DNA of 64,000 nt. Source: Thermosediminibacter oceani DSM 16646 (GTDB taxonomy: Bacteria; Bacillota; Thermosediminibacteria; Thermosediminibacterales; Thermosediminibacteraceae). Within the stretch, counting starts at the first letter, position 1; the number at the start of each line of letters is the position of its first letter. Positions 55,444 through 58,079 of the stretch are shown piece after piece. A program made the position numbers and the translations under genes. The notes beneath the pieces are model-generated. The model was not told where the DNA came from. It saw only the letters and a program-made list of their open reading frames with translations, and did no database searches. The DNA lies in NCBI RefSeq assembly GCF_000144645.1, contig NC_014377.1, positions 1-64,000 of the forward strand. The letters run 5' to 3'.

Positions 55444-55958
55444 ATGAGTAATGAAATATTAGAAAAACTGTTTGCAAGCAAAATGAAAATTATTTACAAA
55501 TACCTCGTTAAGATAGGTTGTAGTCACGATGATGCAGAAGATATCGTGCAGGATACCCTTTTGCAAGCCATTATTCACCTGGAGGTTCTTGACCCAGATA
55601 AAATCGTTTCATGGCTTTTTAAGTAGCCTTAAATCGTTATTATGACCTGTGCAGAAAAAATAAGAAGCTTCCGCTTTATTCGATGGAAACCGAGGGTATT
55701 TTAGAAAATATGCCGGCTGTAGATTGCCTTCCTGAAAATTATATTTTGGACGGTGAGAAGAAGAAACAGGTCTACCGGGTGCTGGAAGAATTAAATCCGA
55801 TATATAAAAACCTATTGGTTTTAAAGTATGAAGTAGGACTTTCCTATCGGGAAATAGCAGAGGTTCTGGACATTAATGAGCAAACAGTGAAAACCTACAT
55901 TTACAGGGCCAAACAAAAATTCAAGGATGCCTGGAGGGAGTTAAACCATGAACGATGA
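55444..55958 (+). pseudogene. ECF-type sigma-70 factor, broken by a frameshift
   Basis: The first frame (55444-55626) encodes the sigma region 2 part: LVKIGCSHDDAEDIVQDTLLQAI. It then stops at TAG 55624. Region 4 continues in another frame (to 55958): VALNRYYDLCRKNK, then LNPIYKNLLVLKYEVGLSYREIAEVL and INEQTVKTYIYRAKQKF. Both halves are well preserved and meet at CTTTTTAAGTAGCC (about 55614-55627), which fits loss of one base. A simple -1 slip would meet TAA, so programmed frameshifting is unlikely. The gene is AT-rich relative to its neighbours. A sequencing error cannot be excluded. Confidence 0.78.
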
Positions 55959-56932
55959 GAAAAAATTGGCGGATATATTTGATTTTAACAACAGTAAAAT
56001 CAAAAAGGTGTTACAGAAGGCTAAGGTACTTACTTTACTCAGGACGGTTGCTGTCAGTTTGTTTGTCTTTTTACTATTGAGTGCAGCAATTGTCATTATC
56101 AACGCGGTGATGTTAAACCGTATTGGCAATAATGAATTGACAAATGAACTTATTTTTGATTTGGTGGCAAGGCCGAATACATACATGAGTCAGTATCAGA
56201 ACAATGACGGTTTCCTTACAGGAGAGTTAGAATATGTTACTCACAGGATTGTCGGGCAACAGGCCGGTATATAATGGAACCTACACGATCAAATATGAAA
56301 TTATTCCGATTACCCCGGGCATTAGCGGTCATTCAGAGCGAGGTCAATTGATCCGGGTTGAAGCTGAAGACCAGTATAATTATTATAACAGAGTCGGTAA
56401 TAGAGAAATGAAATTTTATCATCCCTATATCGAATATAAAACCTATGAAAACGACCTTGCCCTGCTGGAGGAGATTGGAGAAGATAAATACCTAGAAATG
56501 GCCCTTTCCTTTGACCGGGATTACAGCCTCGAAGAAGTACAGGCAATGCTCCCTGCTGAAGTGAAACCTGTTTGGTACTGGGTGAATACTTATAATAATG
56601 AAGATTTGAACAGGAAAAAAAACGGTGAGACAATTTTTTTTGCCAATGAGGTCTACGGAATGAAAGGGGCTAATTCCGACGGAACAACGATAAAAGACCC
56701 CCGCAACTCTTTTATCAGTGCCATTAATTCCGGTCTAAAACGAAAAAGCCGTTATCAGCTGCAATTCCGGAGGCTCCACGAAAGGTTGAGCAATGATAAA
56801 GGAGAAATTACAAAAGATAATATTAGAGTTATAGGGGTGGTGGTTACGGGGGATACTGCTTCGATGAAACTATTAAGGGGCAAAAGTTATATTAAAGCAT
56901 CATCTTTGGGAATAGTAGTAGACAAATTTTAG
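55948..56932 (+). pseudogene. Anti-sigma factor with Sigma_reg_N and Sigma_reg_C domains, broken by a frameshift
   Basis: The first frame (55948-56274) has a cytosolic N-terminus, one membrane helix (about 32-52) and the start of the outside domain. The reading continues in the next frame (from about 56257) with NRPVYNGTYTIKYEI and later ALSFDRDYSLEEVQAMLP. The junction is at GGG (56254-56256): removing one G gives IVGNRPVYNG. The region resembles anti-sigma proteins of ECF factors such as B. subtilis YhdL. It overlaps the sigma gene by 11 bases. Two close frameshifts suggest decay. Confidence 0.75.
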
Positions 56933-56969
56933 GTTTTCACAAAATATTAATAGAAAAAACTCGTACTTA

Positions 56970-56998
56970 TTGACAGCGAAAAAATATTTAAATATAAT
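56970..56998 (+). promoter_or_regulatory. Consensus sigma-A promoter of the HesB-like gene
   Basis: TTGACA (56970-56975), 17-base spacer, TATAAT (56993-56998): an exact consensus match. The transcript would start near 57005 with GGAGGTG before the ATG. Confidence 0.85.
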
Positions 56999-57024
56999 AA
57001 AATCAAACGGTGGAGGTGAATGTT

Positions 57025-57309
57025 ATGATCAAAATAGAAATAGATGAGAAGGCAAAGGATTTTATTCGGGAGAAAAACAGTGACGCCATAACCGTCAAGC
57101 TTGAGCGCTTCGGCGGCGGATGAGCGGGGTGCCGGTACCTGCCTGCCGTGTATGTAGGCGCTCCGTCGGATGAAAACGAATATCAGGTTCAGGAAGTCGA
57201 TGGGATAAAGGTATATATAAGCCCCTTTGTCGATGCGCAAAAGGGCCTCAGGATTTACCTTTCCGGTTTTGGGATGTTCAAAAACCTGGCGGTGGCCACA
57301 CCGTATTAA
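57025..57309 (+). CDS. HesB-like selenoprotein candidate with in-frame TGA (Sec33)
   Basis: Reading through TGA at 57121-57123 gives a 94-residue protein: MIKIEIDEKAKDFIREKNS at the start, then LERFGGG-U-AGCRYLPAV and KVYISPFVDAQKGLRI. It matches the HesB/IscA-like fold, in which a conserved Cys stands at this place; a HesB-related selenoprotein family with Sec here is known. The frame is intact on both sides with no other stops, behind GGAGGTG and a consensus promoter. A hairpin, GCCTGC/GTAGGC (57141-57159), lies 17 bases after TGA as expected for a bacterial SECIS. Function is unknown. A nonsense mutation is the main alternative. SelB/SelC genes are not in the window. Confidence 0.8.
57141..57159 (+). 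other. Putative bacterial SECIS hairpin
   Basis: GCCTGC (57141-57146) pairs with GTAGGC (57154-57159), one G-U pair, with a 7-base loop CGTGTAT. It starts 17 bases after the TGA. An outer AGCG/CGCT pairing (57123-57126 with 57159-57162) could extend it. Confidence 0.4.
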
Positions 57310-58079
57310 TCCGCACTCCGGTGTTCCTTGTAAAGCTGTATGAATTTCATTATAAATTCGAACTCCTCCGGGGTGCAGTCGGCCACCATCTCCAGGAAGG
57401 ATCTCACTTTGGGGTCCACCAAAAGCCGCTTAAGTTCCGGGTTCATGGGTCTTAAAAGCGATGCTATTTCATCGTCATCGGTGACGAAATAGCAGGGCGA
57501 AAGCGAAAGGGCGTGGGCTATCTTTTCCAGAGTTTTTAGGGAGGGTTCGACCCTTCCGCTTTCGATCTGGCCGATGAGGCCGGTGGAAACTCCGGCCTTC
57601 TTTGCCAGCTCTACCTGGGTGAGGCCTCGCTCCTGGCGGATCTTCTTTATCTTATAGCCTACGTGGGAAGTCGCCACCATGAGGTCCTGAGCGGTCATGC
57701 ACAGGGCCTCAGCTAAGGCTTTGAGGGTTGAGAGCGACGGCAGGGCGTTTCCCTTTTCGATCTGGCAAAGATACGTCGCCGAGATGCCCGCCTTCTCGGC
57801 CAGTTCCGAGAGCGAAATGCCCTTTTCCTGGCGAAGGAGGGCTATCTTTTCCCCTATCGATCTGCTATTGCGGTTCTCGGTGGGTTCCGCCCCGAAGAGA
57901 GCGTTTTTCGATATATTAAGGGCATTGGCCATTTTTTCGATGGTCTCCAGGGAAGGCTGTTTTATGCCCCTTTCTATTTCGCTCAAATAGGAGACCGACA
58001 GATCCGCCCGCCGGGCCAGTTCCTGGAGGGACATATTCCTTTTTCGCCGGATGTTCCGAATAAGTTTCCCGTCGATCAT
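57306..58079 (-). CDS. Triple-HTH XRE-family regulator
   Basis: A 257-residue protein made of three Xre/Cro helix-turn-helix domains in tandem: about 6-62, 75-131 and 142-196. Each has the pattern of LSxxELAxxAGxSxxYLxxIExG. A helical C-terminal tail (205-257) has no recognised domain. The three repeats suggest internal triplication and a long or looped operator. It converges on the HesB-like gene with stop codons overlapping by 4 bases, and is divergent from trxA. The ATG follows AAGGGG. A palindrome in the divergent gap may be its operator. Confidence 0.88.
   Translation of the reverse strand: MIDGKLIRNIRRKRNMSLQELARRADLSVSYLSEIERGIKQPSLETIEKMANALNISKNALFGAEPTENRNSRSIGEKIALLRQEKGISLSELAEKAGISATYLCQIEKGNALPSLSTLKALAEALCMTAQDLMVATSHVGYKIKKIRQERGLTQVELAKKAGVSTGLIGQIESGRVEPSLKTLEKIAHALSLSPCYFVTDDDEIASLLRPMNPELKRLLVDPKVRSFLEMVADCTPEEFEFIMKFIQLYKEHRSAD

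Follow-up and report, generated by a model that had tools for sequence, protein, structure and literature searches.

The gene at 57025-57309 and its surroundings

The genome of the heat-loving bacterium Thermosediminibacter oceani is a single contig of 2,280,035 bp, and the window analysed here is the 64,000-nucleotide stretch at its start. Within this window, a 94-codon frame runs from an ATG at 57025 to a TAA at 57307-57309 with a single in-frame TGA, at codon 33. An earlier note on this DNA had described the frame as broken only by this TGA and as lying behind GGAGGTG and an exact TTGACA-17-TATAAT promoter; the coordinates and the translation agree, and both upstream signals were found. The features are as follows.

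56970-56998, forward strand: promoter TTGACA-17-TATAAT, matching 12 of 12 consensus positions, with a conserved block, TTGACAGCGAAAA, after the -35 box
57012-57018, forward strand: ribosome-binding site GGAGGTG, 6 nt before the ATG, read directly and present in 14 of 14 orthologues
57025-57309, forward strand: predicted selenoprotein gene, 94 residues, NF041239 CC/Se motif family with an IscA-like fold (translation, HMM, purifying selection, AlphaFold2, Foldseek)
57121-57123, forward strand: UGA predicted to be read as selenocysteine (Sec), codon 33, motif GGG-U-A-G-C (TGA in 14 of 14 full-length orthologues of the order)
57141-57159, forward strand: putative bSECIS hairpin GCCUGC-CGUGUAU-GUAGGC, starting 17 nt after the UGA, 6 bp with a 7-nt loop, conserved and covarying

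The read-through translation of 57025-57309 is MIKIEIDEKAKDFIREKNSDAITVKLERFGGGUAGCRYLPAVYVG...AVATPY. Upstream of all 14 orthologues we found the -35/-10 pair together with GCGAAAA or a near variant, and the conserved block at the -35 box reads TTGACAGCGAAAA or a near variant. The full promoter pattern with this block occurs once in the T. oceani genome. Given a conserved block and a promoter pattern unique in the genome, these sequences suggest dedicated regulation of the gene. A block that overlaps the -35 box, ATTGACAGCGAAAA at 56968-56982, is also conserved among the orthologues; it may serve as an operator, perhaps one bound by the XRE regulator that is encoded next to the gene, at 57306-58079.

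Further upstream, an ECF sigma factor gene (window 55444-55958) is split by a frameshift or stop, with a TAG at 55624, and is probably decayed. The overlapping frames that follow, 55948-56274 and 56234-56932, look like one frameshifted gene (window 55948-56932). Neither of the two matched a family, and a counterpart was found for 56234-56932 only, in the sister species and in none of the other relatives examined.

Conservation of the TGA, the downstream hairpin and the Sec machinery

The closest other record in a single-protein contig search came from T. litoriperuensis (90% protein identity); of the proteins that this search returned, 4 were true relatives, and another 10 weak matches, of 20 residues and in proteobacteria, were left out. 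Within the order, 15 of 22 genomes gave a match, 14 of them at full length, and all 14 full-length orthologues, which span several genera, carry GGG-TGA-AGC at the same codon. Values of pN/pS relative to T. oceani were 0.14-0.53 before the TGA and 0.13-0.51 after it, indicating purifying selection on both sides. At the DNA level, 3 of the 94 codon columns are invariant among the 14 orthologues, namely TGA, CCT and GTG. The CCT and GTG are four-fold degenerate codons inside the downstream hairpin, so their invariance directly marks a constraint at the RNA level.

These data bear on the reading of the TGA as a true stop in a gene that is decaying, whether it arose by nonsense mutation or is a sequencing error. 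Prodigal ends genes at TGA, and gene calling of this type would do so here. Version 1.4 of that program was the gene caller in the 2010 genome paper of T. oceani (PMC3035372). Decay also occurs in the region, since the frames at 55444-56932 look broken. However, 14 orthologues belonging to several genera share the TGA, the sequence beyond it is under purifying selection, and both the Sec machinery and a conserved SECIS were found. On these alignments the true-stop reading is already refuted by the conserved TGA and the conserved downstream protein, and we leave it practically no probability.

The wider family points the same way. In a sample of the phylum, 90 of 398 genomes had a match to NF041239, and among 137 matches (some from genomes that appear twice) the aligned column holds Sec in 103, Cys in 26 and something else in 8. 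Four of these eight have a TGA one or two columns off in a shifted alignment, while the other four are divergent paralogues outside the order with neither Sec nor Cys at the column. The T. oceani protein, with its TGA at codon 33, has one of the two residues usual at the motif position. According to the earlier note, another sense codon in relatives would have made the TGA a nonsense mutation; bar the four divergent paralogues, the relatives have Sec or Cys.

A hairpin 17 bases past the TGA had likewise been pointed out before, and we find it at 57141-57159, conserved in the manner of a SECIS. In the bSECISearch model, the apical loop lies about 16-37 nt from the UGA and has 3-14 nt with a G in its first two bases, on a stem of at least 4 bp. 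The T. oceani loop starts 23 nt after the UGA, is 7 nt long (CGUGUAU) and tops a 6-bp stem. All six pairs are kept in the 14 orthologues (100% paired), and two of them have changed on both sides, from G-C to A-U and from A-U to G-C. When the partner strand was slid by 1-3 columns, pairing in the 14 orthologues fell from 100% to 18-48%. In a shuffle control within these close orthologues the covariation was not significant by itself (69/500); its strength rests on the slid controls and the wider family, not on the 14-orthologue shuffles.

For the family-wide test, we aligned all 91 distinct single-TGA members at the TGA only, without gaps. Pairing was 82% at the true register, and sliding lowered it to 24-41%. 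Of the 91 Sec members, 70 have all five inner pairs, in 11 helix versions, as against 1 of 24 Cys members, and the loop opens with CGUG in 68 of 91 Sec members versus 2 of 24 Cys members. An Rfam scan of the locus gave no SECIS-type match and returned only a chance lncRNA at E=0.5.

Single-sequence folding was also considered. In isolated stretches of 42-66 nt the T. oceani hairpin is not the minimum-energy fold, another structure being preferred, and shuffling the isolated RNA around the UGA gives energies just as low; we therefore rejected such folding as proof of the hairpin. When the 12-15 nt that begin with the UGA are omitted, which is the stretch that the ribosome would cover, the hairpin becomes the minimum-energy fold with all six pairs restored. 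Frame, TGA, promoter and hairpin are common to the fourteen orthologues, and it is these comparative data, with the same hairpin register across the family, that lift frame, promoter and hairpin above chance.

We next turn to the genes for Sec incorporation, whose absence (no selB or no selC) would, on the argument of the earlier note, have left a nonsense mutation. All four are in the T. oceani genome: selA (TIGR00474, 625.8 bits), selB (TIGR00475, 378.6 bits), selC for tRNA-Sec (RF01852, 81.1 bits; anticodon TCA by ARAGORN), which adjoins selB, and selD (TIGR00476, 392.3 bits). The first three are clustered at about 762-765.5 kb; selD lies apart from them, at genome coordinates 1994174-1995097. 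Because selD contains one in-frame TGA, T. oceani SelD is itself probably a selenoprotein. Across relatives, selB was present in 24 of 24 TGA-bearing genomes tested. Within the order it occurs in 13 of 13 genomes with the gene and is absent from 6 of 6 without it, a pattern that may reflect only two losses as these six genomes belong to two genera. Genomes with only Cys forms are uninformative on this point, since selB is also present in 10 of 11.

Read-through of the UGA as cysteine or tryptophan by another tRNA would fit with Cys being the alternative residue of the family. Against it stand a dedicated, covarying SECIS that is present in Sec members and absent from Cys members, and a canonical tRNA-Sec, anticodon TCA, next to selB; we regard such read-through as extremely improbable.

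Taken together, these data make it very probable that the frame at 57025-57309 is a genuine gene for a selenoprotein of the known NF041239 family, with its UGA at 57121 decoded as Sec via the hairpin. As the earlier note had proposed for codon 33, and with the sel genes present, Sec or Cys in relatives and a conserved SECIS, this is almost certainly Sec decoding with a bacterial SECIS rather than a nonsense mutation. Gene, codon, hairpin and machinery are all read from the genome sequence, and from them we infer actual Sec insertion. On reaching the UGA at 57121, the ribosome would be served by SelB, which with Sec-tRNA(Sec) would bind the hairpin at 57141-57159, and selenocysteine would be inserted at residue 33; when selenium is absent, translation would stop after 32 residues. 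One well-supported selenoprotein is thereby added to the T. oceani proteome, of a kind that gene calling that stops at TGA would miss.

Predicted fold, possible role and two-TGA relatives

An AlphaFold2 model built with 52 family members had a pLDDT of 90.3 and a pTM of 0.79. The top Foldseek matches in the PDB are A-type carriers or their relatives, such as SufA (2d2a, E=1.4e-5) and IscA (1s98, E=3e-4), with probability 1.00; the fold match is moderate (TM 0.59, rmsd 4 A; TM about 0.5-0.6 over the top matches). The predicted structure thus has the IscA/HesB fold of the PF01521 superfamily. By sequence, a PDB search gave a weak IscA-like match only (1nwb, E=0.026), and a profile search against the PDB gave no match. 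A sequence alignment with Aquifex AQ_1857, though weak, puts Sec33 on the cysteine of the GGC-SG turn, in keeping with the earlier proposal that the TGA stands at the HesB/IscA cysteine. In the predicted fold, Sec33 would sit in the turn where IscA-type proteins have their first cysteine, with Cys36 nearby (UxxC).

A-type Fe-S carriers have three conserved cysteines, including a C-terminal Cys-x-Cys. The T. oceani protein resembles IscA, SufA and ErpA (PF01521) in its predicted fold, with Sec in place of the first Cys, and differs from them in that their C-terminal Cys-Gly-Cys is absent; U33 and C36 are its sole candidate chalcogen ligands. Even with Sec decoded, a protein of this fold could in principle transfer Fe-S clusters as an A-type carrier that contains selenium; this alternative concerns the function and leaves the decoding untouched. 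The predicted IscA/SufA fold favours such a carrier, but with Sec33 and Cys36 as the only chalcogen ligands, no C-terminal Cys-x-Cys and no Fe-S assembly genes adjacent to the selenoprotein gene in the loci examined, we consider it unlikely. Since Cys36 is the sole other candidate ligand and the Cys-x-Cys is missing, redox chemistry or metal/chalcogen binding is favoured over cluster transfer; we infer that this small protein most likely has a selenol/thiol redox function or binds a metal or chalcogen, instead of serving as an Fe-S scaffold.

The neighbourhood is well conserved. In all eight loci examined within the order, a convergent XRE regulator gene and then trxA come after the selenoprotein gene, and in most of the eight a gene named from its sequence as mannitol-phosphate dehydrogenase-like comes before it. 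The thioredoxin, encoded two genes downstream in every examined locus of the order, is a possible reductant.

Another NF041239-related gene turned up whose frame holds two TGAs side by side (...HGUUNAFYAPSG...). The genomes that carry it belong to the family, order and class of T. oceani, apart from one more distant case. No such gene was found in a search of the T. oceani genome itself; the sister species has one. In 10 of 10 distinct two-TGA sequences a hairpin scored better than at least 95% of codon shuffles. It has a G-containing 4-nt loop, which starts 21-24 nt after the second TGA, as in CCCCAUCA-GGUC-UGGUGGGG. In 5 of 5 loci inspected in the family and order, the two-TGA gene lies behind genes for a ferredoxin and for an aldehyde ferredoxin oxidoreductase (AOR)-like protein. 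At one locus a monomeric FeFe hydrogenase-like gene comes next. In a partial coverage of the literature we found no paper on adjacent Sec pairs in NF041239.

We somewhat favour a view in which NF041239 proteins use an IscA fold to carry a redox or metal site, with Sec freely replacing the Cys-Cys motif. In relatives of the same family, order and class the site would now comprise an adjacent Sec pair (UGA-UGA) with one SECIS, encoded within the order just behind the ferredoxin and AOR-like genes; the T. oceani gene would then be the single-Sec paralogue of the group. With the tandem-TGA paralogues one could test how a single SECIS copes with a UGA-UGA pair.

Comparison with known selenoprotein families

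The T. oceani protein scores 97.7 bits against NF041239, the 'CC/Se motif family (seleno)protein' (cut-off 40), with residues 2-91 matching positions 1-89 of the 91-position model. This is a predicted selenoprotein family, first in Moorella thermoacetica, and is already known, as it is listed in a 2026 review (PMC13188914, Table 1). This hypothetical family now gains testable features, namely a predicted IscA/SufA fold, a SECIS in fixed register, Sec/Cys exchange and, at the level of the order, a thioredoxin/XRE neighbourhood.

The earlier term 'HesB-like' holds for the predicted fold, for which SufA and IscA are the best Foldseek matches, and does not hold for the family. The HesB-related selenoprotein family that it implied, TIGR01911, shares with the T. 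oceani protein a HesB/IscA-type fold (here predicted), small size and a Sec near the first HesB cysteine position, where the weak sequence alignment places it. However, the protein reaches 15.1 bits against a cut-off of 66.35 and lacks the UxGP motif of TIGR01911, so far below its score for NF041239 that membership in TIGR01911 is very improbable. The Pfam HesB model, PF01521, likewise stays under its gathering cut-off (15.6 versus 26.3 bits), with weak matches at E <= 0.1 in 21 of 52 NF041239 members. The sequence UCGP or UGGP, which may be compared with the UxGP of TIGR01911, does occur in some distant members of NF041239.

With NF041239, in contrast, the protein shares a full-length match well above cut-off and Sec or Cys at the motif, in a family that is widespread in the phylum. 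In some genomes two or three NF041239 genes lie close together with differing motifs (UC, CU, CC). The review gives the family motif as CxxU with one Sec (PMC13188914), whereas the T. oceani motif is UxxC (U-A-G-C), and the protein falls into a UAGC subgroup of its order with a fixed XRE-trxA neighbourhood.
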